Assembly: GCA_026874595.1 (NCBI GenBank)
Contig: CM049307.1
Span: forward strand, 9,633,579 to 9,697,578
Reading direction: 5' to 3'
Length of the DNA: 64,000 nucleotides
Source of the DNA: Sipunculus nudus
Lineage: Eukaryota > Annelida > Sipuncula > Golfingiida > Sipunculidae
Under the pieces are notes generated by a model. It was given only the letters and a program-made list of their open reading frames with translations. It searched no databases and was not told the DNA's origin. This document shows, piece by piece, positions 18,286 to 43,310 of the stretch. The position numbers and the translations under genes are program-made. Within the stretch, counting starts at the first letter, position 1; the number at the start of each line of letters is the position of its first letter.

Positions 18286-18617
18286 TGACAGAGGTCATTA
18301 TCAGGAAATGCATTGCTAATAGTTGCACTAATTGTTCTTAAATTTTTATTTTTAATGGTATTCTTCTTTCTTTAGGAAACTTGAAAGAAATAAAAAGTAA
18401 GCTTCTTATTAAGTTCATAATTTTTCTTGGAGGGGCAATTTTCTAAATGTTTTTTCCTGTGATGACTTGGTATCATCTGTTTATCTATACAGAGACATCT
18501 TACATTACTGATACGGTGACAGTATACATCTCCATGACAGTGTTCGTGACATTACCAGAGTATGATTTACTAGAATTGACAGTTTATGGGATGATTGTGT
18601 TAATTTTTTTTTTCCAG

Positions 18618-18752
18618 ACTTTACTTCACTGTTCCTTGGCTCCCTGCGTCTGGTGTTTCTGTTAGGCTTCGTTACCTTGGTGATTGCTGGGATCCAACGC
18701 CTGTGGAAGTCACTAGGTCTTCAGAGAAGGTCTAGTCAGAACCAGCAAGCAG
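18618..18752 (+). CDS. UBXN8: UBXN8 exon with membrane helix
   Basis: 135 bp, acceptor TTTTTCCAG|, donor |GTATAT, entering in phase 1. It encodes a hydrophobic helix with the stretch LVFLLGFVTLVIAGI, then a basic QRLWKSLGLQRR segment that fits the cytosolic side. It aligns with human UBXN8 from its KDFLLL block onward. Confidence 0.85.
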
Positions 18753-21700
18753 GTATATGTAATGTATTCTGTACATTCAGATGAAACAGTAGCTACCTGA
18801 ATGGTAAGAGATATTTTGATAATAGTTCATAGAATATATAAATGTTACAACTAAAATTGTGAAATTGCCCATTTTATGAAATGGGAATCTGAACTGCCGG
18901 GAATATATTTCTTGATTCTGTAAGGTATAAAGGACTGTTTGAAGGATTCTTTGTGACTATCTGCTCATGTGAATCCCAATGCCAAATCTTAATGCCTATC
19001 CTGTAAGAGCATGAATTAACATTGAGTTGTTACACTGAGATGTATGGTTTCATGAGTAATTGTGTATATCACCAGAGTGATACAAAACAGCACATGCATA
19101 ATGGCATATAATTGATCAAATGACTATAAATTCCAAATTTGCAGTTGAAGTTCATTTTATTTGTAACTTTAAATGATGTGTTTGTTTTTTGGAAATATGA
19201 ACAACATTCTTTTAATCAATGTATTAATAACTTTTTATTTTCATTTTAATGCCAGAGTTTAAATTAAGTATTTTAAGTATTTATAAAAAGTATTTAATTA
19301 AATTGATAGGTAATATATTATATAATTATCATATATTATTCAGAAATATATTACCAATCTTTTTTACTGTTGCATTTTATTTTCAAGAAGTTCTTTGATC
19401 TTTGTTTGTTTCTGCCACTTAATTAAAGTACACTATGTTTGCCCCTTAATTCAAATGATTAACCTGAATTCACCTGGTATGTTGGTAGTAATCATTAACA
19501 TACATATATAAATACTAGCTGATAAACCCGGTATACCGGGCTTTTCACCGCGGTTTGGGAGATATATTTACTGAGATATTGAAGGTTGGCTCATTTTTTA
19601 TTATAAAAGTTAAAAGAAATATAGATTTTAGTGGGATACTCTTGGAATACAATATGTACAAATATTTTTTACTGTTATTTTGTGGCGCTGTGCTCGTAGC
19701 AAAAATCATATCCCGGTATGTTTACCTTAAAGACCTGGTCAGTGATGGTTTACATTGCGAACCGGAATGAGACGCGGAGGCATACAGTGTTTCGTTGATA
19801 TTTGACTGGTTTTTATCGTTGGACGTATAAAGAATAGGTTGATGTGAGGAACACATTAGATTAATTAAATGTACGTTGCAAGGAAACTTCCTGAAGAAGG
19901 AAACAGAAATATACATGTATCGTAAGTAGCAGAAGCGGACCCAGCGAGACTCCATGCAGTGGGTCCGTATCCCATTTTCAGACCCCCGACACCACCCAAG
20001 CCCTGTTCCTGAATTCAGGACCTTGAATTAGGTTTTGTCATTAATCCTCCTGGGTTGAACTCTCCATTTCATAAAGCGAGAAACATGTGTTTTTCTCTTT
20101 TACTGACCACGCATGTGGGTCAAATCCCTCATTGAAAGCAAGCGTTATTCATATGAACAATAGTCCTTAGTGTTAGAGGTTAAGTGACCACGATGCACGC
20201 ATTCCGGTGATTGCCGAAGGCAATTCGGTTGTGCTCGGTAAAAAAACGGAAAAATCACTCAAAATTATGTGTATATTAAAAATTATTTATTTTCATATCG
20301 CCTATGTCACTGCAGGGATAATAACCTTTAAAATGATGTATGGCACAATATTGTACACAACGCGGTTTTTGAGAACAGCGCGAACAAACGTGAACTGTAT
20401 TCCTTTTATAAGTATTAGATTACTTCAGATTTCAGAATAATGTGTAGCTGCTCATGTATGACATGTGATTTACATACACATTTTTTAGTACATTTCCTAT
20501 CTGTGGCTTAATACATTAGTTGAAGCCTACAAATTATGGCTCACCCAACCATAGATGAAAAACTATCAATTTTTAGGTCACAGGGCAAACGTCAAGGCCA
20601 CAGGATCCACTCGTTCAAAATCTTTGTGGACTCAGTTTAAGCTTAACTGTTTGACCTAAACCTTTCAACTTGCACATAAGGCCCACCCAACCATGTATGA
20701 AGAACTATCAATTTTGAGGGCAAAGGCCAAGGCCACAGGACCCTCTTCTTGAAAAAGCTTGTGGACACTCTTAAAGCTAAACTGTTTGATCTAAATCTTT
20801 CATCTTGCACATATAAATCACCCATCCATAGATGAAGATGAAGAGTTTTAGGTCAAAGGTCAAGGTCACAGAACTGCCTTTTTCATTTTCACACACATGT
20901 AATACACCAGTATATTTATGCTCCCATGCAAGGGGATGCTCTGCTCTGCGGTGCCCTTGTAAGTATGGTCTCTTTGAGATGAAAGAAACATAAAATAAAA
21001 TACTATAAATATGATTAGAAGAAATCAACCATTCAAAAATAAATTGTGAGACCATTATCCTCTGGCTGATCATCATGTTTTCTAAACAAAGAACTCAAGA
21101 AGATCCTTTTATTCCTTACAGTTATAAGGGAAAACTATGTACAGATTCTTACAGATCAAAACAAATGGTTATTAAAAATTAATTAGTTAAACTGAGATAA
21201 TCAAATGATTTGTTATTATCTGATTCAAAATAGCAATATGTTTGCATGTATGACAATGTTGATACATCTTTATGTCATGTGTGACCAGAATCTAGCAAAA
21301 ATTCTCGGTTTTAAATGTGCCACTTTTAGAAATGAGCAAAATTCCTCCAATTTCATGAAATGGGCAATTTCACATTTTGGGTGTAATATATATACTGTGG
21401 TTGGCTTTATATTCGCGAGACTGAAGTTTCGCTCTTTCTTCATTTTGAGCGTTTCGCGAGGGTTTCATTTTCGCGATTGTACTAGAACATGTACCATCTA
21501 AGTACAGCAGTATACATAATTGTATTTGTATTGACTTTGAATTTAGAACATATCCTACAATGTCTCACTCATTTCTGGTTCAGTCATTCACTTATGACCT
21601 GTTTAACAGTTGATATATTTCATGTGATTACCACGTGTTTCAATAACGATAAGTTTTCTGATTATTTTGTTTCCAGAGGTGGGATAACCATATTCCCTCT

Positions 21701-24700
21701 TGTTCATCTTAGTTGATGAGGCATTTATTCCCAAGGGTTTAATATTCGCGATTATTTCATATTCGTGATTATCACGAAATTTAATCCCTCGCGAATAAAA
21801 CGGCAACTACAGTATGTCAAGGCCCAGATCCTCATCTTGACCAATCGCCGATTGGTCTGGACCAAATTCTGATCAGGATTCAGTCGGGCCTAAATCGTGA
21901 TCCTCAATTAATAACAAAGAGAATGACATCCTGTGTAATCAGTTGAAGGCTATGGCTACCCATATCCCTGATCCAGCTCATAATTGTACCTTCTTGCTTA
22001 ATTCATGCCCACAAGACTCTTTTTAATTATCAGATCAATGTTAAATTGAGTATATTTATAGAATGTTTTTGTTTATTTTAGATACAGAATTTAATTATTT
22101 TGATCCATACATACATGATGTATATAGGTAATACAAGCCAGAAAAAGTTTTATCATCAAGTTTTACATATTTTGAATTTTACAAAAGTTAAGTTGTGCCT
22201 GAAAGGTCAGTAGTATTCATTTATTCCATTAATTAATTCATGTCAGGTACCAATCCTACTAATATTCACTTGTTCAGCCAACTCTTTATGTTTTTGAAGT
22301 TTGGTAAGGCTTAAATTAAAGTTTGTCATGATGATATTAGATTAACATTTATGAGAAGGCTGAACTAAGCTGAATTTTCCTCAGTTTAATTAGAAGTATG
22401 TGCCATAGGTATTATTTGGTATTATTATGGTCTGAATCATCATTTGGTGTGGACCAGATCCTGATCAGGGTTTAGACTTTTCAGAGTCCGGATCGGGATT
22501 TGGTCTGCAACAATGGGGAATGAGTCCAGACCAATCTGTGATTGGTCCAGTCCAAATCCCCATCGGGATTCAGTCTGCCCAAAACTCTGATCGTGATCCT
22601 GACCAGCCCTGGTCCAGCCCAGATCCTGATTGGGGTTTAGGCTGGACTAAATCCTGACCGGTATTTGGGGCTTGACAAATATATAATATATCAAATATCT
22701 GTCAAGGAACAGTTAAAGATTTCTGGCCACAGAATCAGCAGGACACATCTGTGATCATTTAAAGAAAGGTAACTGACCAAGTCTTCACTGTTATTACACA
22801 GAATCTTATGGGGATCTACCTTTGCAAACAATTTCTGTACTTAATAAAATTTAACCCCTTTCTCTGATGAGAAGAGCATGAGTTGTGGAAGGCCTCCTTG
22901 ACAAAAGCCAGGTGTATCATGAATAAAGCTAGGTGTATCATGAATAAAGCTAGGTGTATCATGAATAAAGCTAGGTGTATCATGAATAAAGCTAGGTGTA
23001 TCATGAATAAAGCTAGGTGTATCATGAATAAAGCTAGGTGTATCATGAATAAAGCTAGGTGTATCATGAATAAAGCTAGGTGTATCATGAATAAAGGTTT
23101 TTGTTTCACCTTTTCCTAGTAGTTTGTCCTGAATTAAGTTCTCCATGTAAACTGACAGGAATTATAATTAACTTTCACAGTTTTTACATGTTCACATACA
23201 TGCATGCAAAGCAAAACATTTTCTAGGTGTCTAGGTTTATATTCCAGGAGCCGAGGTAATTCTGTTTAATCATAATTATGTTTGATAAACCTATACAAAG
23301 GATAAACTCCCCATGTGTATACAACAGTTTTATGTATTTGGCCAAAGATCACAGATATTTATTAAAAAGGAAATACCAGGTTTGTCACATATCTAGGTGT
23401 TTTAATGAGGCATTGTGTAACTTTCTTCATTTCATGTAAACCTGTCTATATATTGATCTAGCTGAGTTAACCAAAAACCTGGATGATTGTATTGCGTTGG
23501 CTGGAAACTTTAGTCAGTGGCAAATAAGCAGGTGTATCATTTCAATTGAACAGTTAGTCCTTTTCTGTCAGAAATAAAATGTGTACAACTACAAGATGAT
23601 ATACTTGTAATTGTTATACTGCAAGAGAACTTTGTTTACTAAACTATAATATGAAAATGTGGGCCATTTATTTGTAATGATATTTTACTTCCATAGGTAT
23701 TAGAAAATAACAAAATTGATAAACTCTCAAAATGTACACATAAAAATAATAATAATTATATTTCAGATTGATCAAAAACTAGAAATAAATAAATAAAAAA
23801 TTAACAAGGAACAAAAATTATAAATCCTGAATCATTAGTTCTAAAGTGTTCAAAAAAATTATTAATAAAGCCAACGATAGATCAAATATATGAACAGCAG
23901 TTTTTCAAATTCAAAAATATTATTAATTGCAGTGAGTTAATGGTAGAATAGATAAGGAACATTGTTAAAATGTTTGGATTAAATCATCTTGAGACTAAAA
24001 TGACTTTTAAAGCTGTTAGAGCTAACTATTCTGTTCTTGTCCTTGTCATGAGTGATTAGGATTCACCTGTATTTTTTTATGAAATATCACAGGTACCCTT
24101 ACTTTTTTCTTTTTATCCCCAATCAAGTATGACTGATCAGAATTATTGATGTCCTCTGTGACACTTGCATTATGAAAAAAAGACACATATCTGATAAGTC
24201 ACATTGTTTCATGGAGTTCATTGTAATAGCTGTCAGACTACTCAGTCATAAATTTGATTAAGACAATACATAAAAGTCTGTTTATCAGATGACATGGTCA
24301 GAGCCCACTTGTTAAGGTGGCAACCTTGATATATACCTCTTCATTTAAAATCACTTCTGAAGGTGTTTTAAACACATTTTGAGACTTCATAAAGTACATA
24401 TAATTTAAAAACCAGACGTACTGTTTTCCCTCATGAAATATTTGTTGATGAAAATTTCCTTCATTTTTAGCTCAGCTGACTGTAAGTCATCTGAGCTATA
24501 GCGATCACTCTTTGTCTGTCGTCCGTCTGTCGGTCTGTCAGTCTGTCCTTCTGTCTGTCCATTAACCAGGCACAAATCGTAACCACTGGACCTAGAATCT
24601 TGTAACTTGAGATTCTGAGAGGTCCATAAAAAATCTCCATGGAAACCAGACATTAGGTCTCTGTTACCCATATTCTTCGAGCGATGGGGCCCCAAAGTAC

Positions 24701-27700
24701 CCCCAAGAATAGTCAAAAATTTCATACAAAAACTTCAATATCTCATTAACTACATCCCTGATGGTCATGATTTTTGGCACACATATTGATCATGAGATGT
24801 TTCATCAGTTCCTGCAGACTGGTGGCGCCACCTGTATTTTTCAAATTTTTACGAATAGTTTTCTCTATTTTTGAGACCTTTAAAAATGTGAACATCTGTA
24901 AACAGGGCACAAATCGTATAGACTGGACCTAGAATCTTTATTCTTGACACAGTGAGAGATCTATGAAGAGTCTCCATGGAAACCTGAAATTAGGTCTCTG
25001 TTACCCATATCTTTTGAGCTACGGGGCCCCAAAATACCCCCGAAAATAGACAAAAATTTCGTTCAAAAACTCAAGTATCTCATTAACTACATCACTGATG
25101 GTCATGATTTTTGGCATACATATTGATCATGGAGTATTTCATCAGTTTCTGCAGACTGGTGGCGCCACCTTTATTTTTCAATTCTTTATGAATTGTTTTC
25201 TCTATTTTTGAGACCTTTAAAAATGTGATCATGATCATGATTTTTGGCATACATATTGATCATGAGGTGTTCCATCAGTTTCTGCAGACTGGTGGCGCCA
25301 CCTTTACTTTTCAATTCTTTACGAATTGTTTTCTCTATTTTTGAGACCTTTAAAAATGTGATCATGATCATGATTTTTGGCATACATATTGATCATGAGG
25401 TGTTCCATCAGTTTCTGCAGACTGGGTGTGCCACCTCAATTTCTTTCAAATTTTTATGAATTTTTTTCTCTTTTTTTGATACCTTTAAAGATGTGGTTAT
25501 CTGTCAACAGGGTACAAATCGCAACAACTGGACCTAGAATCTTCATTCTTGTCATGCAAGAAGGCCCATGAAAAGTGCCTGTGGAAACTTAAAATTAGGT
25601 CTCTGTTACCCATATCCTTCAAGCTATAGGACTCCGAAGTATCCCTCAGAATAATGGACAATTTGATACAAAAGCTGAAGTATCTGAACAACTAATGCAG
25701 ATATCACCATGATCCTTTGCATGGATATTGATTATGGAGTGTTTCATCAGTTTCTGCAGACTGGTGGTGCCACCTATATTTTATTCAATTTTTCGAATTT
25801 TTTCCGCTATTTTTGAGACCTTTAAGGATGCTGCCATCTGTTAACGTGGCACAAATTGTAACAACTGGACCTAGAATCTTCATTCTTGTCATGCAAGGAG
25901 GCCAATTTGATACAAAAGCTGAAGTATCTAAACAACTAATGCAGATATCACCATGATCCTTTGCATGGATATTGATTATGGAGTGTTTCATCAGTTTCTG
26001 GAGACTGGTGGTGCAACCTATATTTTATTCAATTTTTCGAATTTTTTCTGCTATTTTTGAGACCTTTAAGGATGCTGCCATCTGTTAACGTGGCACAAAT
26101 TGTAACAACTGGACCTAGAATCTTCATTCTTGTCATGCAAGTAAGCCCATGAAAAGTGTCTGTGGAAACCTGAAATTAGGTCTCTGTTACCCATATCCTT
26201 CAAGCTATAGGACTATAAAGTATCCCTCAGAATAATGGAAAATTTGATACAAAAGCTGATGTATCTGAACAACTAATTCAGAGATCACCATGATTCTTTG
26301 CATGCATATTGACCATTAAGTCTTTTTATTAGTTTCTGCAGACTGGTGGAGCCACCTGAATTTTTTACGCATTTTTTTCTCTATTTTTGAGATATATAAA
26401 TACAGACACAATCTTGGCCTGTTGGTTATTCTGTTTGATGCTTCAGTTGAATGGGTATATACTACCATTCAGATGATAAAATTTCCTTTTGCGAATCTCT
26501 TCCCATTTAGCTGAGCGTCATGACCCATGGGTCACTTGTTATGTAAGTGTATCACAGTTTTTTAAGCACTCTGTATTACATATTAAATAACATGGTAATA
26601 TCCTAAAAGTTTTTTCCTCTGCTATGTTTCTCTCTTTCCTTGTTTAAAAAATGAAATTTTATTAAAATAAAATTTAGAATTTTTGTAGAAAGAAACATTT
26701 ATGGTATGAAATGGTATGACAAGTTTCCTCAATTGATTTCCCTTTGTGCAGGACTTGATGAGGAAGCGGTGAAGGCTGAACAAGAGAGATGTAGGCAGAA
26801 AACACAAGAAAGCCACACTGTAAAGGTTAGTCATAAAATGATATTACTCACTATATTAACACATTCCCTTCCAATGATGTGTATACCCTTCATTTATTAT
26901 GATTACCCCAGTGCCAAGCACAATACATGTCATTTATTGATCACCAACTTCTCCCCCCCCCCCTGAGTTTTATTGCCCCTGAATTATTATAATTCACACT
27001 GTTTATGGCCTTGGCACTGGGGTGGGGAGGGGGGGGGGAACATGGGCTTGGCAGTGGATGTGTCAGCTGACTTGTCTGTATTGTGTGAAAGCATAAAAAC
27101 GTAACAGAATGTTACAGGCAATATTACTGTTCAAGGACTAGCTCATCACTTTAACACCAGTGGGATGGTAAGATAAAGAAATTAACACACCTAGATTTTA
27201 TCATTCTAAAAACAAGAACTAGAATGCTGATAATCTGATGTTTTATCAGTTGTAATTGGCATTGACCTTTTCACTTTTGACTCTACATTTTAAAGGCATA
27301 TTTGATCGATCACTATGCCTAAAGGAAGGTTATGTCAAAGCAAAATTTATAATGGTTGAAAATATTTATAATGCCTATGTATATTGACAGACCAGCACTT
27401 TGAGAGTATATTTTTTTTATTGCCAGGCCAGCAGTTACATTGAGAGGATACAGTGTATCTTACCAGGCCAGCAGTTACTATGAGAGGATACTGTGTATAT
27501 TAACAGGCCAGAAGTAACTTTGAGAGGATACTATGTATATTGACAGGCCAGCAGTAACATGGGAGTGGATACTATGGATATTGACAGGCAAGAATTTACT
27601 TTGAGAGGATATTATGAATATTGACAGGCCAGCAGTTACTATGAGGGGATACTAAGTATATTTACAGGCCAGCAGTTGAGAGGATAATATGTATATTGAA

Positions 27701-30700
27701 AGCCCAGCAGTTACTATGAGAGATAACTATGTATATTGACAGGCCAGCAGTTATTATGAGAGGATACTATGTATATTGATAGCCCAGCAGTTACATTGAG
27801 AGGATACTTTGTATATTGACAGGCCAGCAATTATTGTGAGACATAACTGTGTATATTGACAGGCAAGCAGTTACTATGAGAAGAAAATGAGTATATTTAC
27901 AGGCCAACAGTTACTATGAGAGGATACTATGTATATTGACAGGCCAGCAGTTATTTTGGGAGGATACTTTAAATGAGAGACAAGCAGTTTATTTGAGAGG
28001 ATACTAAACATATTAACAGGCCAGTCGTTATTTTGTGAGGAATCAGAAGATACTATGTATATTGACAGGCTAGTTGTTATTATGAGGGGATACTGTGTAT
28101 ATTGACAGGCAATCAGTTACTATGAGGGGATACTGTGTATATTGACAGGCCATCAGTTACTATGAGGGGATACTGTGTATATTGACAGGCCATCAGTTAC
28201 TATGAGGGGATACTGTGTATATTGACAGGCCATCAGTTACTATGAGAGGATACTATGTATATTTACAGGCCAGCAGTTATATTTTGGGAGGATACTATGT
28301 ATATTTACAGGCCAGCAGTTATTTTGGGAGGATACTATGTATATTGAAAGCCCAGCAGTTACTATGAGGGATAACTATGTATATTGACAGGAAAGCAGTT
28401 ACTAGGAGAGGATACTATGGATATTGATAGGCAAGCAGTTACTATGAGAGGATGTGTATATTGAAAGGCCAGCAGTTACTATGAGAGGATACTATGTATA
28501 TTGACAGGCCAGTAGTTACTATTAAAGGATACTTTATTGACAGACCAGCAGTTTATTGAAAAGATACTTTATATATTGACATGCCAGCAGTTACTATGAA
28601 AGAATACTATGTATATTGACAGGCCAGTTGATATTATGAGAGGATACTGTATATTGACAGATCAACAGTTACCATGAGAGGAAACTATGAATATTGGCAG
28701 GCCAGCAGTTTCTATGAGGGGATACTATGTGTATTTACAGGCCAGCAGTTATTTTGAAAGGACACTATGTATATTGACAGGCCATCAGGTACTATGAGAA
28801 AATACTGTTTATATTGACAGGCCATCAGTTACTATGAGAGGAAACTGTGTATATTGACAGGCCAGCAGTTACTATGAGAGGAAACTATGTGTATTGAAAG
28901 GCCAGCAGTTACGTTGCTATGAGAGGATACTATGTATATTTACAGGCCAGCAGTTATTTTGGGAGGATACTTTGTATATTGAAAGCCAAGCAGTTACTAT
29001 GAATGAAAACTATGTATATTGACAAGCAAGCTGTTACTATGGGAGGATACTATGTATATTGATAGCCCAGCAGTTACATTTAGAGGATACTTTGTATATT
29101 GACAGGCCAGCAGTTACATTAAGAGGATACTTTGTATATTGACATGCCAGCAGTTACTTTGAGAGGATACTATATATATTGACTGGTCAGCAGTTACCAT
29201 GAGAGGATGCTATGCATCTTGACTGGCCAGCCATTATTATGAGAGGATACTATATATATTGACAGGCCTGAAGTTATTATGAGAGGATACTATATATATT
29301 GACAGGCCAGCAGTTATTATGAGAGGATCCTAAAACCTCGACAGGAGGCCCAGCTGGAGCAGAAGGAGAAAGAATTCAGGAGGTTCATGGGACCAGCCTG
29401 GAAAGGAAAAGGACATCAGCTCGGCAGTGTAGGTTTTAATTATCCCTAGAAACGTTACCATTCAAGATAAACGGTCAGCTCTGTCTAACTGTTATTCCTC
29501 TCTAGGTCTTTTAACTTTTCATATTAAATGCTAAAGCCTTAAGTCAGTCCTATTTTGTAAACATACTTTGTATCTTATTGAAAGGCTATTGTAATGTTCA
29601 CACTCTTCAAATATTGACTTTAACTTTTCACAGGCTGTGTTGTAGGTTTCGGATGTGGTACATTAATAATAGCTCCACAGTTGCACCACTCAACAAAGAG
29701 TTATATATTCTGGACAAAATATATCTGGACAGCATTACAACTGTCGAACTGAAGAGAAAAGCCTAAAGTAGAAATGTAGCCCTGATTACTGCTGGTACTG
29801 GGGCTGTAACAATACATCTCATGATACATGTCATGATACTTAAATCACGATAGGATACATGATACAATATATATATGATATGCTGTAATTAGGCTTTCAA
29901 GCTGAATTTTCCCCCATCTTTAAAATGTAAATAAGCTAACTTTCATATAATTTGATTCCAAACCATAAATAAATTGATCTCCCAAACCATTAACCAGTCA
30001 GATGCCATTCAGTTTGTTTCTTATCAATTAAGTTTCATCTCAGATGCCTTATATAGCCCTGATAGACTGTTTATAAATTTCATCAGATGATTATTTATAT
30101 TCAGTGTTTTGATACAAGAACAATTGATGACAAAGGTACAAAATTTCACTTTGTACCACAATGTATTGCTTCACTGGATGGTTAATGCTTACAGCCCTAT
30201 TTGACATTGATACTTTGAGGTGTAACTTAATTATTTTGTATCAGTTCTTTTTGAATTGGATATTTTTGCTTTTGCATATATTCACCTACTAAATGTTCTC
30301 GTGTACATAGATGTATTTACATCCATAATTCATTGCTTGGCCTTAATACCCATTACACTTCAATAACAGTTGAGCAGGCTTAGTCAGAGAGTGATATGAG
30401 TAAGGCCCGTTTTCAATGTACACTTTTTTACACGATTTTCTGCACGCAGAAAAGTCGGAACAGTGCAAACAAGTTGTAACATTTCCATGTACGCTTTTCA
30501 TGGCACTTGCATTCATCGAGATGAAAAAAAAAGTCAATTCCTGTTTGACTTTTCTGCTCACTTTTTTGCTCATTACAGTAAAAACAGTCAGTACCCGGGA
30601 TACAGTGAGCGGAAAAGTGCACGTTGAACATATATTCAGCGTGGTTTTCTGCTTGTTGATTTCAAGCGCGATGAAATTTCAGCGAACACGGAAAACCGGC

Positions 30701-33700
30701 CTTAATATGAAGCAGGAAGTGAATATGAAGTTCAAATGATACAAGGATCTTCATCAGTTGTTATTCAAAGAATGCACATGTGTTCTTTTTTCAGGAAGAT
30801 GGAGTAACAAAGAAACCTTCCAAGAAGGAGGGGTCCAGCCAGGATGCTGCCAATTCCAGGAAACTGCCAGAACCTCCCAAGAGGGCTCAAGTCACACCAG
30901 AACCACAGAAAGTCAAAAAGGTCAGGGGTCACCAGACATAACAGTCAAGGATGTATGTTATATATGAGAAAGTAGTAACCAAATTAGTGATCAGAACATG
31001 TGTGCCTTTGTATATGTGCAGACGTTTGATAATTCACTCCTCACTGGCTCAGTTATATTGTTTTGGTCATATAATTATACAATACCTCCAGAGTGCAGAC
31101 TCTGATGTGACTTAGAATGTTCCCAGTAATATACAGAGGTGCCAAAATTATGATATGGACCTTTATTCTGCATTTCATGGAAGCATCTCATGTTGTAGGG
31201 AGCTTCCAGTTAATAGAGAGCTTACATGCAGGAGGAAGTTTCTTGTAATTTTAAATCTAGAATATATTATACTGGTAAATATTTAAATATTTCTATCACA
31301 GTGTGTCTTAATGGCTAAGTGCTTTGATAAACTGTGTGACTGTCATCAAAAGGCACACAGTTTCACAGGAATCAATTACTTCAAGAGCTTAGAGATATCA
31401 TCAGAATACTGATATATTTTAACTGGCTCCAGGTATTAGAAGTTCCTGATGAACCACCAGAGGGAGCCGTAGACAGCCTCATTATAATCCTCCGAACTCC
31501 CCAGGGAAGAAACTATAGAAGAAGATGGTTGAAATCACATACAATACAGGTTAAACTTAAATTATGTTCATTATATGACATAAAGCATTGAGTAGGTTGA
31601 GCATATAAAGCTTGATGGTGGATAGGTAAATGAAGGTAATGGGAGCCAAATCATTAAAAAGATTGTGTATGCACTGTAAATCAAACTTTTCATCCCAAAC
31701 TCTCCATCTTTCACACATGGCTTACTTGCCCTTTGGAGTGAAGAAATCTGTAGATTTTGAGGTTACCTGGTCAGAGGTCAAGGTCACCTTTTTAAAAGAT
31801 CGTTACAATTATCAAAATGCTGCAAGTTCAAAGATAATAAGTTCTAAGTTTTTTGGGCACAAGGTCATTGGTTAAGGTCACTTGACTGTCATTCTGAAAA
31901 ATTTCTTAAAGGGACATAATCAGGAGCAATATTATTACTGTTCTTTTACACTATTATTTCAGTTTTGCTTTATACAAAAGTTCCCAGCTAAACCATCCCA
32001 GCACAGTCTCATTTTCTTCGCATATGCCTGTACAACACTTTGTTATAGCCTGCGTGTTGGTAAACACAGTCTGATAAAAATTGTAACTGCTGGACCTAGA
32101 AACTTCTAAGTAATTATCCAGGAAGGTCAATAAAAAATCTGAAATTAGGTCACTGCGACCTATATCATCTGAGCTATGGGGCTTGAAAGTACCCCCCGAA
32201 TAATCAAAAATATAAAACAAAACCTCCAATATCTTGATCATTAATGCATGGATTGTCATTAATCTTGCCTTGAATATTGACCATGACTAGTTTTTTCAGT
32301 TCTCGAAAAGTGGTAGCACCACCTGTATTTTTTGCTATTTTAACGAATATTTTTTTTGTTTTTTTTTTTAATTTAAATTGACAACAATCATGTTAGTTTC
32401 TCAGCTGTAATTACATCTAGTGTCCCATAATGTGGTGTGTTTATTGATCACAAGTGGATCCCATATAGTTATCACCCTGTCAGTCTGTTTGTTCATCTGT
32501 CTGTCTGTCCATCCATCCATCCACACAAATTTGTTTCCAGGTGATAACTCCAGGTTGTATTGACACATGGATTTCAAACTTGACTAACATATGGCCCACC
32601 ACTAAAGCAAGAACCTATATGATTTTGGGGTCATAAGGTCAAAGGTCAAGGTCACAGGACTCACTTTTTTAAAAAGATTATGGCTGCATTTTAAGCCAAG
32701 CTTTTCATCCCAAACTTTCCATTTTGAACATTAAGCTGACTTGCCAGTATGGGGAGAGCATAAATGAATTTGGGGTCACAGGGTCAAAGGTCAAGGTCAC
32801 AGGGGCCATCTATTCACAAATTAGATTCAAACTTTTCATCTCAATTCTTCCATCATCAACATGTGGTGCACCTGCCAATAGGGGAAGTTTCCTTTTGATT
32901 TTGGGGTCATAAGGTCAAAGGTTAAGGTCACAGGGCCCATCCATTCACAAATTAGTTTATGGATGATAACTCCAGTTTGGGTAGACAGGTTGGCTTCAAA
33001 CTGATCACAGGACCAATATTTTGGAAAACCTCATAAACATATATCCTTATAGACAAGTGCAGCTGAGCGTCGAGACCCATGGGTCCCTAGTTGGGGCAGA
33101 GTCAGTCAGGGCATTTCCTTAATGGCATAGGTTATGGCTTTGCGCAGCACACAGCCCAACACACTGTATTTATGTTGACACCTGCAATTGCGCCCTGTTC
33201 ACTGTTTTTAACACTCTTTCATAGGAGTAAAAATAAAAGCACTGCATAAAAAAAGGAAATCTTATCAAAATTGTATTATTTCATCTTCTTAAAAGATGAA
33301 AACAAAATCGAATTTTTTTTTATGCGGGAGGGGGGTTTAAATTGACGTAGATAATACCTGAGAACAATAGCTTTCATTTTCTGTTGGCAATAAGCACTTG
33401 TTAAACAGAGGTGTCCAGACGTAGTTTTTTTTCTTGTGTTCTAATTTTACTATTAAGAAAATGAATAAATTGTTATTTTCAAACCTTGCACCATCTGACA
33501 CAAGTCAGCATCTTATTGAAGATTTTCAGCTTTACCTGTAGTTTGTATGGACTTCACTCACAAGTTTTTCCAGGTTCAACTTTTAAATTACCTGCTATGT
33601 TCTAAAACTCGGTATGAAATGCTAAACTGTGAAATAGGAATATTGTAATCAGTTTTTATGAATACATAAATGTTATAAAATGAATGGCTTCTAGTAGAAT

Positions 33701-35526
33701 TTTGGAGTGTGTATTTAATAGTTTTATAGTGTGTCAGTTTGCATTTTAATTGTGTTATTTAATATAAAAAATGATAGTTGGGAGTATAGAACTTTTGTAC
33801 AGGTTTAAAATTCTGCCTTTGGGCATGAATGAAAGCAGCTAATTATGTGTAGAATATTTGAAGAAATTTTTTCATGAATGAATAAAAGTGATTTCTCAGA
33901 ATTTAATAACTATTTTTTATCTCATTAATAACAGCACCATCTTGGTCACTTTCTTTAGGCATAGTAAATAAATTTTATGCTTCAGTATCATCATGTTGGC
34001 TCTGAGTTCATTTAAGGTGAAACCTTCATGGTTTAGTTGTTAGTTGCAGTTACTAAATTTCATGGTTCAGGGTCACCATCCCCCCCCCCCCCCTTTCCCC
34101 ATGGTAGGGCCTGGAATCCTTTAAGGTGAAACTGTCATGGTCTAGTTGTTGGTTCTGTGTCACTTCCATTATGCCATTAACTTTATTTCATGTCCCACCC
34201 CACCCCCCCTGTAGGGCCAGAGTTTTAAGGTGAAACCTTCATGGTCTAGTTGTTGCTAACAACCAAGTAACTTCCAGTACACCTAGATTGATTGATTGAT
34301 TGATGTTATGGTTCAGTGTCAGAGTGAGAGGTCTTTTTGATTTAAGGTCATGGTCAGTAGTACTAGGTAGGCCTTCCTGTAGCCCCAGTGTCTTAATTTT
34401 ATAATGCAGTGCCAGTAGTTCTGCTCAGCCACACTGGGGATGATTCCCCTGCACATTAGGCATGTATAATAACAGCTTATGTAATGCCACACTCCCAAAG
34501 TCTAGGTTTTATTAGCAGCACTAGTTTTTACCCATTCTTGTGTAGTTCACCTTGGTTCTGATAGATGTTGCTGTTAATGTCAGGTTCCTCAGGATTTCTG
34601 GCAAACTTGGGAAATTAACCCTCAAAAGGTACACTGGGCATCATTCCCAACTGTTCAAGACCTCCCCCAAAAAGTATACAATCTGGATTTATTAAAATTT
34701 GAAGAAAAAGGCACCCTAATGGTTGATTACTAACCCTCTTCACATCCATCGTCCATGGTGTATAAGACTGTATAATTAAGTCCACCATTGTACCCAGTCT
34801 TTGGCAGTGGTTGTTGCTTGTTATGAGTTCACTATCTCATCTCTCTCTTTTTCTACGATTCCTCTCCATGTTACTCTTGGTCTGTCTTTTTTCCTTTTTC
34901 CTTCTGGCGTCCATGTTAATGACATTATTATATTATAGACTTATCTCGTTTAAGAACTCACCCTACCAACTTCAACCAGTTCTGATTAACCATTTTGCTA
35001 GCTTCTGAAGTGTTTGTTCTCTTATAATGCTCTTGGATGCTTATTTTCATTGGCCAATGAATTTTTAGAATTCCCCTGAGTCTTCTTTTTTTAATAGTGT
35101 CAGTCTTATTTGCATCTCCTTCTGTCATTTTCTGTCTCCTTCACCGTTACATTACTGTGGGAAATTTTGACCTTTTTCTGTGTTTGTATACTGAAGGATT
35201 TTATTTTTGTTTTAGTTTGACATATGCTGTTCTTGCTTGTGCTGTTCTTCTACTTACATTCTCTTTTTTGGTTGATTAAACATGTGTAAACATATGTGGT
35301 TGTGTTATTATTAGATGTAAATAATTAACTAATTCCTCTCATATTTGTTTTTTTTTTCCAGGTGTTGCTGAACTACATTACAAAACTAGGATACCACCAG
35401 AAGTTTTATACAGTGTTCACGTCATACCCACGGTGCTGCGTGTCATATGACCCAAATGTGACGTTAGAAGAAGCCGGGATCACCAGAGACATTACACTTA
35501 ATGTACAGGAGAAGGATGATGAATAA
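18618..35526 (+). CDS. UBXN8: UBX domain-containing protein 8 (UBXN8/REP8) orthologue, 5' end missing
   Basis: In mammals UBXN8 is an ER membrane protein whose cytosolic UBX domain tethers p97/VCP for ER-associated degradation. Exons 18618-18752, 26752-26825, 29306-29428, 30795-30920, 31433-31549 and 35362-35526 join in phase into 246 residues ending at TAA; human UBXN8 has 270. Order: a short segment starting DFTSLF and one hydrophobic helix (about residues 5-27), a basic stretch, a charged coiled linker, ASSYYERILKPRQE (human has a close ASRYIENVLKP block), the MGPAWKGKGHQLG block, a Lys/Pro linker, then the UBX beta-grasp fold from LRTPQG through SYPR (canonical FPR loop, here Tyr-Pro-Arg) to LEEAGI. 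The start Met exon, about 25-30 codons, was not identified upstream of 18618. Introns total about 16 kb and are full of repeats, including a splice-site minisatellite before exon 29306. Confidence 0.9.
19510..20440. repeat. Unclassified, possibly mobile-element-derived stretch in UBXN8 intron
   Basis: Higher in G+C and CpG than its surroundings. It begins near the 14-base palindrome CCCGGTATACCGGG (19527-19540). No coding domain or termini could be recognised. Continuous short frames at 19555-19770 and 20207-20440 match no family I know. Confidence 0.3.
20530..20870. repeat. Tandem repeat of about 140 bp, 2.4 copies, with AGGTCA half-sites
   Basis: The words CACCCAACCAT / CACCCATCC recur at 20542, 20684 and 20819. 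Each unit ends in a GGTCAAGGTCACAG-like phrase. The same family occurs at 31.7-33.0 kb. Confidence 0.7.
21395..21812. mobile_element. MITE-like element with terminal inverted repeats and TA flanks
   Basis: The left end is CTGTGGTTGGCTTTATATTC then GCGAG. The right end is its imperfect reverse complement, ending GGCAACTACAG. Both ends are flanked by TA, the target duplication of the Tc1/mariner superfamily. TTCGCGA words recur inside. It is 418 bp with no coding capacity. Confidence 0.65.
21820..22670. repeat. Scattered GACCAGATCC / GATTGGTC repeat words
   Basis: Phrases such as GACCAATCGCCGATTGGTC (a perfect palindrome, 21839-21857), its variant at about 22527, and GATCAGGATTCAGTC recur in both orientations. 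This looks like a degenerate tandem or fold-back repeat. Confidence 0.5.
22904..23096 (+). repeat. 21-bp minisatellite, 9 copies, one AATAAA per unit
   Basis: Unit AAAGCTAGGTGTATCATGAAT, almost perfect. The 21-bp length keeps frames open on both strands (Lys-Ala-Arg-Cys-Ile-Met-Asn on plus), but this follows from the period and does not show coding. Each unit carries the polyadenylation hexamer AATAAA in the sense strand of UBXN8. Confidence 0.95.
23100..24468. other. UBXN8 intron stretch, nothing recognised
   Basis: AT-rich DNA with no exon or repeat that I can support. Confidence 0.4.
24469..26540 (+). mobile_element. Dispersed family element with full head and tail, 2.07 kb, internally repeated
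   Basis: The head AGCTCAGCTGACTGTAAGTC forms a hairpin with ATCTGAGCT and is followed by GTCC/GTCTGTC microsatellite. The tail is AGCTGAGCGTCATGACCCATG then GGTCACTTGTT. The interior is a tandem series marked by GGACCTAGAATCTT (about 24590, 24926, 25530, 25868, 26111) and CAGTTTCTGCAGACTGGTGG. A 133-bp piece is duplicated back to back at about 25225-25490. No protein is encoded. It lies in the UBXN8 intron. Confidence 0.75.
26752..26825 (+). CDS. UBXN8: UBXN8 second identified exon
   Basis: 74 bp, acceptor TTGTGCAG|, donor |GTTAGT. Encodes LDEEAVKAEQERCRQK and ends SHTVK at a codon boundary. The charged linker corresponds to the Glu/Lys-rich region of human UBXN8. Confidence 0.85.
27381..29305 (+). 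repeat. 40-bp minisatellite built from the splice acceptor and first codons of the next UBXN8 exon
   Basis: About 48 imperfect units of GCCAGCAGTTACTATGAGAG / GATACTATGTATATTGACAG. Each unit contains a 3' splice site (TTGACAG|) followed by codons for Ala-Ser-Ser-Tyr-Tyr-Glu-Arg-Ile-Leu, the same nine residues that begin the real exon at 29306. The array runs without a break into that exon, so its last boundary is the working acceptor. A unit of 40 is not a multiple of three. Variants include losses of the AG and unit-length changes. Confidence 0.95.
29306..29428 (+). CDS. UBXN8: UBXN8 third identified exon, seed of the 40-bp minisatellite
   Basis: 123 bp, 41 codons. The acceptor ATTGACAG| is supplied by the last unit of the 40-bp array. 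Encodes ASSYYERILKPRQEAQLE through FMGPAWKGKGHQLGS, the best conserved non-UBX block of the family. Only this acceptor keeps the frame; the next unit upstream would give Ala then TGA. Confidence 0.9.
29807..30199. mobile_element. Possible hAT-like MITE
   Basis: The left end GGGGCTGTAACAATACATC and right end TTACAGCCCTATT are roughly inverted, sharing GGGCTGTAA. The interior has GATACATGATAC words. No clear target duplication is seen. Confidence 0.35.
30401..30704. mobile_element. MITE with TAAGGCC terminal inverted repeats
   Basis: The left end TAAGGCCCGTTTTC and right end GAAAACCGGCCTTA are inverted with one mismatch in 14. ATATGA flanks both sides (30394-30399 and 30705-30710), a likely target duplication with one extra G on the left. 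Non-coding, 304 bp, in a UBXN8 intron. Confidence 0.65.
30795..30920 (+). CDS. UBXN8: UBXN8 fourth identified exon
   Basis: 126 bp, 42 codons, acceptor TTTTTTCAG|, donor |GTCAGG. Low-complexity Lys/Pro/Ser linker containing KLPEPPKR. It matches the variable linker before the UBX domain. Confidence 0.82.
31433..31549 (+). CDS. UBXN8: UBXN8 fifth identified exon, first half of UBX domain
   Basis: 117 bp, 39 codons, acceptor CTCCAG|, donor |GTTAAA. Encodes VLEVPDEPPEG, then the beta1-beta2 hairpin SLIIILRTPQGRNYRRR, with the basic and Gly positions typical of UBX domains. Confidence 0.9.
31670..33092 (+). mobile_element. Dispersed family copy with tandem AGGTCA-rich units
   Basis: Ends with the family tail (CAGCTGAGCGTCGAGACCCA, then TGGGTCCCTAGTT). 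The word GGTCAAAGGTCAAGG recurs at 32637, 32782 and, with one change, 32913. These units of about 140 bp match those at 20.5-20.9 kb. The head is not clear. Confidence 0.55.
33093..35361. other. Remainder of last UBXN8 intron
   Basis: Contains short local repeats at 34010-34260, where TTTAAGGTGAAACCTTCATGG / GGTCTAGTTGTT phrases recur about every 100 bases, and a 14-base poly-C (34080-34093). No exon is seen. Confidence 0.4.
35362..35526 (+). CDS. UBXN8: UBXN8 last exon, second half of UBX domain
   Basis: 165 bp, 54 codons plus TAA, after a strong polypyrimidine tract. Encodes VLLNYITKLGY, the SYPR loop that stands for the p97-contacting FPR turn, and TLEEAGI. The tail is acidic, QEKDDE. Confidence 0.92.
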   Translation: MLLNYITKLGYHQKFYTVFTSYPRCCVSYDPNVTLEEAGITRDITLNVQEKDDE

Positions 35527-40859: not shown

Positions 40860-43310
40860 ACTTGTTAACGTGTGGACGAAGGCTTTCACTCGATAACTCA
40901 GAAAATCAAGGTCACAGTCACCTACTTTTATGTTTCAACAAAGAACCTCTGTGAGTCAGTTGAACGTGAATTAAAAAAAAAAGACTTCTTGAGGTTACGA
41001 TTCGAGCACTGTTAAGTGTTAATGAGATTCACAGATGAAACTTCTGGGGTTTTGCTCGGTAACCAGAAAGTCACAGTGACCCACTTTACAATTTTCTCCA
41101 GAGAACCTGTCAAGACCTGTGATCATGTAAGATTAAACTCCCCGGGTCTTGCAGTTACTATTTGTGCCGGGTTACCTGCGGAAGGTGGTTTCATGGTTTT
41201 CACTCATTTACTCAAGAAATATATATCACAGAGATCTACATTTAGGTTTCCACAAAGATTCTTCTGGGCCTGTGAGCATATGAAGTTTGTAGTTCCTTGG
41301 TCTTTCACATACAAGTTTTGCCACAATGATTCTTCTGGGCATTTGAGCATATTAAGTTTGCAGTTCCTGGGTCTTTCACATACAAGTTTTGCCACAATGA
41401 TTCTTCTGGGCCTGTGAGCATATGAAGTTTGCAGTTCCTGGGTCTTTCACATACAAGTTTTGCCACAATGATTCTTTTTGGCATTTGAGCATATGAAGTT
41501 TGCAGTTCCTGGGTCTTTCACATACAAGTTTTGCCACAATGATTCTTCTGGGCCTGTGAACATATGAAGTTTGCAGTTTCTGGGTCTTTCACATACAAGT
41601 TTTGCCACAATGATTCTTCTGGGCCTGTGAGCATATGAAGTTTGCAGTTCCTGGGTCTTTCACATACAAGTTTTGCCACAATGATTCTTCTGGGCATTTG
41701 AGCATATGAAGTTTGCAGTTCCTGGGTCTTTCACATACAAGTTTTGCCACAATGATTCTTCTGGGCCTGTGAACATATGAAGTTTGCAGTTCCTTGGTCT
41801 TTCACATACAAGTTTTGCCACAATGATTCTTCTGGGCATTTGAGCATATGAAGTTTGCAGTTCCTGGGTCTTTCACATACAAGTTGTTCCACAATGATTC
41901 TTCTGGGCCTGTGAACATATGAAGTTTGCAGTTCCTAGGTCTTTCACATACAAGTTTTGCCACAATGATTCTTCTGGGCATTTGAGCATATGAAGTTTGC
42001 AGTTCCTGGGTCTTTCACATACAGGTTTTGCCACAATGATTCTTCTGGGCCAGTGAACATATGAAGTTTGCAGTTCCTTGGTCTTTCACATACAAGTTTT
42101 GCCACAATGATTCTTCTGGGCATTTGAGCATATGAAATTTGCAGTTCCTGGGTCTTTCACATACAAGTTTTGCCACAATGATTCTTCTGGGCCTGTGAAC
42201 ATATAAAGTTTGCAGTTCCTGGGTCTTTCACATACAAGTTTTGCCACAATGATTCTTCTGGGCCTGTGAACATATGAAGTTTGCAGTTCCTTGGTCTTTC
42301 ACATACAAGTTTTGCCACAATGATTCTTCTGGGAATTTGAGCATATGAAGTTTGCAGTTCCTGGGTCTTTCACATACAAGTTTTGCCACAATGATTCTTC
42401 TGGGCCTGTGAGCATATGAAGTTTGCAGTTCCTGGGTCTTTCACATACAAGTTTTGCCACAATGATTCCTCTGGGCCTGTGAGCATATGAAGTTTGCAGT
42501 TCCTGGGTCTTTCACATACAAGTTTTGCCACAATGATTCTTCTGGGTCTGTGAACATATGAGTTTGCAGTTCCTGGGTCTTTCACATACAAGTTTTGCCA
42601 CAATGATTCTTCTGGGCCTGTGAACATATGAAGTTTGCAGTTCCTGGGTCTTTCACATACAAGTTTTGCCACAATGATTCTTCTGGGCCTGTGAACATAT
42701 GAAGTTTGCAGTTCCTTGGTCTTTCACATACAAGTTTTGCCACAATGATTCTTCTGGGCATTTGAGCATATGAAGTTTGCAGTTCCTTGGTCCTTCACAT
42801 ACAAGTTTTGCCCTGTCAACAGACTGACAGATTGATTCTGTTTTCGCTGCTTAAATTGGAAAATTTAGGTCACAGTAAACTGTATGTTACTCGCACAGAG
42901 AACCTATCACTAACTGTCAGTATATGAAGTTTCAACTTACTGAGTATTGTGGTTATGATCTGGGCTCTGTTAATGTTGGACAATAGCTATCGGAGTTTTC
43001 TCTCCATAACTCCGACAGTACATGTCACAGTGACCTATTTTTGGTTCCCACGGAAAATCTGTCTGGACCAGATAGTATTTAAAGTTTGAAAACCCCGCGT
43101 AAAAATGTGTGCCCTGTTATGCCCCATCAACAGACTGATAGATAGGTTCAGATGTTTTTGCTGCTTAACTCAGAGAATATACGTCATACCTGTCAGCATC
43201 TACGGTTTAAATTTGCGTCCTGTGAGCGGACGACCGGACGACTGACAAAGAGTGATTGCTGTAGGTCAGATATGACTTTCATTTACCTGAGCTAAAAAGT
43301 AAAATAAATA
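40860..43310 (-). mobile_element. Inverted copy of the dispersed family carrying a 71-bp tandem array
   Basis: Near its right side (about 43225-43310), read on the minus strand, it has TTTAGCTCAGGTAAATG and then CAATCACTCTTTGTCAGTCG. This is the family head, so the element points left. Non-array parts contain ordinary family phrases such as AAGGTCACAGTCACC and CAGAGAACCTGTC. The left boundary is uncertain. Confidence 0.55.
41240..42820. repeat. 71-bp tandem array, about 22 units, with two alternating variants
   Basis: The unit starts TTCTGGGCCTGTGAGCATAT and continues through GAAGTTTGCAGTTCCTGGG, TCTTTCACATACAAG and TTTTGCCACAATGATTC. Phase marks at 41262 and 41333 give the period. Units with CCTGTGA(A/G)CAT alternate with units having CATTTGAGCAT over much of the array, giving a partial 142-bp higher-order repeat. 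The open minus-strand frames are by-products of the repeat. Confidence 0.93.

Follow-up and report, generated by a model that had tools for sequence, protein, structure and literature searches.

A minisatellite across an intron-exon boundary in a UBXN8-like gene of Sipunculus nudus, with the anatomy of an amphioxus mirage

Introduction

The closest described counterparts of the array reported here are the "mirages" of amphioxus, minisatellites that lie across an intron-exon boundary in Adh3 and in the globin genes BflGb6 and BflGb9 (PMC3087553). Arrays in PGBD5 and troponin C have been likened to them (PMC3902484). The reported units measure 10-160 bp, an AG or GT is present in many but not all of them, acceptor and donor edges both occur, and the arrays reportedly leave splicing undisturbed. 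Two other systems involve the same kind of boundary. In potato RdRp, a tandem duplication over an intron-exon boundary created a new intron (PMC4974935), and in human segmental duplications, internal tandem repeats at exon-intron boundaries, with units of 30 bp on average, alter gene structure (PMC2812944).

Here we analyse a window of 64,000 nucleotides from Sipunculus nudus (GCA_026874595.1, contig CM049307.1, positions 9,633,579 to 9,697,578 of the forward strand), in which an earlier note, made from the letters alone, had pointed to a minisatellite built from the acceptor edge of the adjoining exon. Coordinates are positions in this window unless another locus is named.

Results

The host gene

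The array lies in a gene whose conceptual protein contains a UBX domain (PF00789, E 2.3e-7). Among PDB entries the best match of this domain is mouse Reproduction 8 (2cr5, E 1e-19), followed by FAF1 (E 3.3e-8). We take 2cr5 to be the mouse protein and Reproduction 8 to be UBXN8, and the start of the exon beside the array presumably resembles human UBXN8 around the same place. Judged by its sequence the gene is UBXN8-like, in agreement with the earlier note. Its parts, with a slash marking an exon edge here and below, are as follows.

26752..26825, + strand: upstream coding exon, ending AAG/GTTAGT (read from the sequence; protein match in the own genome)
26826..29305, + strand: intron of 2480 nt, of which 1931 nt are array
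29306..29428, + strand: array-side coding exon of 41 codons, phase 0 at both ends, starting ASSYYERILKP
30795..30920, + strand: following coding exon (protein match in the own genome; ends by eye)
31433..31549, + strand: coding exon with the start of the UBX domain (protein match in the own genome, domain match; ends by eye)
35362..35526, + strand: last coding exon with the stop and the remainder of the UBX domain (protein match in the own genome, domain match; ends by eye)

Read by eye, the exon at 29306-29428 is open and in phase with its neighbours at 26752-26825 and 30795-30920. The authentic boundary is retained on the exon side of the array, which occupies most of the intron. A protein search of the S. 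nudus genome returned six matches, five of them single exons of the UBXN8-like gene and one a UBX paralogue; there was no joined copy among them, as a retrocopy with a spliced junction would be. Upstream, at 18566-18784, an open frame with a hydrophobic stretch is perhaps the membrane exon of the gene, as UBXN8 has a membrane segment at its N end.

Units of the array

Tandem Repeats Finder places the main array here at 27375-29332 on the + strand, with a period of 40, 49.1 copies and 80% matches. Wraparound alignment resolves it into 48 surplus units of 40 bp, after which the exon's own copy forms the 49th. The earlier count of about 48 units is therefore upheld, while the earlier span of 27381-29340 gives way to the measured one. 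When up to 3 mismatches are allowed, the core of the unit, TTGACAGGCCAGCAGTTA, matches the window 48 times; 100 shuffles gave 0.06 matches on average.

27375..29332, + strand: minisatellite, 48 surplus units and the exon's own copy (Tandem Repeats Finder, wraparound alignment)
27374..27377, + strand: CCTA at the left end of the array (flanks, counted by eye)
29329..29332, + strand: CCTA at the right end, within the exon (flanks, counted by eye)
27368..27390, + strand: presumed ancestral acceptor context, a branch-like TTTAT lying 22 nt ahead of the first unit's AG, with 50 nt free of AG
29145..29225, + strand: three adjacent units that lack the acceptor AG (nominal acceptors 29145, 29185 and 29225)

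The tandem units straddle a splice boundary, each joining 17 nt of intron end to 23 nt of exon start. Their consensus is CTATGTATATTGACAG followed directly by GCCAGCAGTTACTATGAGAGGATA, the acceptor position lying between the two, and all 48 surplus units fall within the intron. Mean pairwise identity is 0.81 (range 0.625 to 1.0, exon copy included), and the exon's copy differs from the array consensus in 3 of 40 columns. The acceptor AG is retained in 43 of the 48 surplus units (42 before the gap placement in unit 28970 was corrected by eye), within a YAG in 37 and a CAG in 34, and is lost in five. In the earlier description every unit held the acceptor and the codons for ASSYYERIL; this is true of the consensus but not of the individual units, as only four encode the exact peptide, three of them behind an AG.

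The predicted RNA structure of 29090-29340 is nothing special (z -0.92). Elsewhere in the window, a 71-bp unit is repeated 22 times at 41250-42812 (94% matches), and a 21-bp unit 9.2 times at 22904-23096 (99% matches), the latter with open frames on both strands.

Source of the array

A 31-base unit pattern gave 27 matches in the S. nudus genome at up to 3 mismatches, all of them inside the array (the exon's copy included). Dispersed satellite copies of the unit, which the earlier note had said would speak against its reading, were not found in this genome with that pattern and threshold. With most of the array as query, a genome search that skips simple repeats and very common words matched the array itself only. 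The unit being seen nowhere else in its own genome, we agree with the earlier note that the edge of the exon is the likely source and the array the derivative.

The exon and the array consensus show two coding differences, both synonymous. The exon-derived 24 nt of the 48 units have 29 synonymous and 75 nonsynonymous substitutions and 5 stops, and the variable columns have no third-position excess (means of 4.6, 6.3 and 5.6 for the three codon positions). Random changes would be 17% synonymous; the observed 29 of 109 is higher, largely owing to one C/T column. Because both exon-consensus differences are synonymous, and the changes among units are mostly nonsynonymous without a third-position excess, the exon seems to be under constraint and the array to be free of it, an argument for which the exon supplies just two changes.

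Probably a tandem duplication captured the edge of the exon and copied these 17 nt of intron end and 23 nt of exon start, and later exchanges expanded it to 48 surplus units; the duplication may have come about through slippage of one short direct repeat (CTA or CCTA) on another. CCTA is present at both array ends, and in the ancestral sequence its two occurrences would lie 40 bp apart, the spacing that slippage would require. The unit junctions read GGAT-ACTA and not GGAT-CCTA, so only CTA is secure as the direct repeat.

Splice signals

From -25 to -5 the authentic acceptor is 38% pyrimidine, and AGs stand 20 and 22 nt upstream of it; for the other four measured acceptors of the gene the pyrimidine content is 57 to 86% (the position is one base off for two of these). 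The best acceptor context belongs to the first unit (27390), where 50 nt are free of AG, TTTAT stands 22 nt upstream and pyrimidines make up 57%; its acceptor is 1.9 kb upstream of the authentic one. Since the first unit beats the authentic acceptor in context, simple scanning would favour the wrong site, which counts against the mirage account that we favour below. The consensus unit has a single yUnAy, TTGAC, 43 nt upstream of the AG of the next unit, with other AGs in between.

Use of any surplus acceptor leads to an in-frame stop before the end of the exon (48 of 48). GTRAG occurs in the array only twice, and the last copy alone is followed at exon distance (123 nt) by exon body and donor. 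The earlier note had spoken of equal acceptors, a term that does not suit units that differ from one another, five of them without an AG and only the last backed by an exon. The gene would survive as long as the upstream exon is still joined to the authentic, 3'-most copy. Exon definition would prefer the exon-proximal acceptor, and use of a surplus one would yield a premature stop. Because the last copy alone has exon body and donor and GTRAG is found just twice, exon definition appears the likeliest explanation of why the gene can work.

Other duplicated boundaries in the genome

Exon matches were compared with their own flanks at 77 other loci, with the array exon as positive control. These comprised 70 of 75 myosin-head matches (30 with 1500-base and 40 with 300-base flanks), two ABC exons, the four other exons of the UBXN8-like gene and the UBX paralogue. 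The boundary is duplicated at 5 of the 77, all five at donor sites. The myosin matches in this sample come from a smaller number of genes and do not count as independent. A match may also end elsewhere than its exon, so that some duplications could have gone unnoticed; one flank scan overlooked L030, which a later comparison found, and others were possibly overlooked too.

In the following counts the authentic copy is included. The myosin exon of L041 (523-1522) has a 36-bp unit with 95% matches and 28 copies of the donor edge, 25 of which read CAG/GTCAGT. At L015 (1649-1989), the UBX paralogue, the end of the exon with its GTAAGT donor is present in four copies of an 85-bp unit. At the myosin exon of L096 the exon end with its GTA is found four times, twice as GTATAAGT, and the donor edges of the myosin exons of L085 and L030 each occur in two copies (81% and 78%). 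Read-through beyond the true donor hits a stop at all five loci (L015 and L030 by eye). L080 was dropped as a boundary case, its repeat being entirely intronic, as were L024, L025 and L038, which offered a single short weak match or similarity within the exon.

Local self-matches occur in 15 of 60 200-bp pieces of the window. At 30 myosin loci they occur in 12 of 60 220-bp intron pieces against 2 of 60 pieces centred on match edges (L041 and L030). Local repeats are thus commoner in non-coding DNA than at exon edges here, which argues against boundaries being special, and the boundary arrays may be ordinary repeat births that touched an exon. A bolder proposal, unlikely in our judgement, is that boundary arrays are widespread in this lophotrochozoan genome and asymmetric. 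Donor arrays would be tolerated (five of the five found in the 77 loci), and acceptor arrays, in which transcription reaches the decoys ahead of the true site, would be rare and persist only after decoys within exon-definition range have lost their AG. Were the asymmetry true, the genome would offer a series of natural experiments in how splice sites are chosen.

The genome searches also brought up matters apart from splice boundaries. Of eight places in the genome that match an FMRFG[KR]-type pattern, six are clustered within 350 bases of contig C14, as in an FMRFamide precursor, and the reversed control pattern gave none. Such precursors are characteristic of lophotrochozoans, and by this feature the host looks like one; myosin, compared with PDB chains from squid (the top match) and scallop, proved too conserved to place the host. 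Contigs C61-C137, which hold many of the loci L046-L075, are small and carry ABC transporters in long intronless frames. Ten matches share one score, and on C89 the same genes appear a second time at a distance of about 2.04 Mb, as though a circular genome that large had been assembled twice. These contigs are probably bacterial, from a symbiont or a contaminant.

Discussion

We consider it very probable that the array is a mirage-type minisatellite, an ordinary tandem duplication across an exon edge that is tolerated because the surplus copies would be spliced out. The reverse order, in which the array came first and the start of the exon was recruited from it, would fit an exon copy that is a unit like the many others and departs from the consensus in 3 of 40 columns; the confinement of the unit to this locus and the seeming conservation of the exon start in human UBXN8 make it very improbable. 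That the array is an artefact, known as it is from a single assembly, seems to us more improbable again, as its units differ (identity 0.625-1.0), unlike the product of a collapsed or looped assembly, and similar arrays stand at other loci of the genome. Least credible of all is that the units serve as coding exons, alternative or repeated, which add peptide repeats. The consensus does encode ASSYYERIL, but the unit length of 40 is not divisible by 3, the array has 32-36 stops per frame and only the two GTRAG donors, the peptide is exact in just 4 of 48 units, and array variation lacks a codon pattern.

Two further proposals give the surplus acceptors a role or a history of selection. They might be poison sites, such that a share of transcripts, spliced into the array, runs into a stop and is degraded, and copy number tunes the output of UBXN8. 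The retention of AG in 43 of 48 units, the in-frame stop that follows from each of the 48 and the better acceptor context of the first unit are all in keeping with this. We nevertheless hold it to be improbable, as the AG columns average 3.0 changes over the 48 units, compared with about 5 elsewhere in the array (before the gap correction in unit 28970), and, apart from this low count, are not clearly better kept; there is no sign of unit maintenance, and amphioxus mirages are said to leave splicing undisturbed (PMC3087553, PMC3902484). Tentatively, and with rather more doubt than belief, we also suggest that acceptors near enough to compete for the donor of the exon were selected to lose their AG, distant ones being free. 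AG is lost in 4 of the 7 exon-nearest units against 1 of the 41 others (Fisher 0.0009; order permuted 0.001), a clustering that is the strongest among 39 dinucleotide columns (next 0.017), and the last seven units are no more diverged overall than the rest (0.104 against 0.110). Among decoys that would make an exon of 300 nt or less, 3 of 4 have lost it, against 2 of 44 (p 0.002). However, the comparison is post hoc, the pattern having been noticed ahead of testing, and two CTG units may share one event, which counted once gives p 0.005 for the seven-unit comparison. Further CAGs remain 7-10 nt on, the nearest decoy, at 29265, retains its AG, and the donor array of L041 has intact decoys beside its exon. 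Similarity of units to the exon showed no significant relation to nearness (Spearman 0.25, p 0.09).

On the mirage account, the array has an anatomy of a kind already published. Boundary-spanning minisatellites are in print for amphioxus (PMC3087553, PMC3902484), so the kind is not new; the earlier note had called such an arrangement unusual. As in the amphioxus reports, tandem copies of a boundary stand beside the authentic boundary, with a splice signal in many but not all units. Unlike the amphioxus mirages, the array has a host that is not a cephalochordate, and it has 48 surplus acceptor copies where two BflGb6 haplotypes are given 6 and 3 units. In the literature searched we found no array called a mirage outside lancelets. 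What is new seems to be a mirage-type array in a seemingly new lineage, with many copies, and several boundary duplications in one genome. Mirages would thus seem not to be confined to lancelets; a single one can apparently comprise dozens of competing splice sites, and one genome can apparently harbour several.

The other two systems share the boundary and differ in outcome. In potato RdRp the duplication likewise spans intron and exon and brings splice signals, but there one duplication gave a new intron, whereas the many copies here come with no sign of one. The human segmental duplications resemble the UBXN8-like array in having minisatellite units at a gene boundary, but they average four repeats and give new introns or longer exons, whereas our repeats remain in a seemingly old intron. 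At loci such as these, natural sequence together with RNA-seq could show how the spliceosome chooses among near-copies, and one may ask whether introns arise from such arrays, as proposed for the globin genes of amphioxus.
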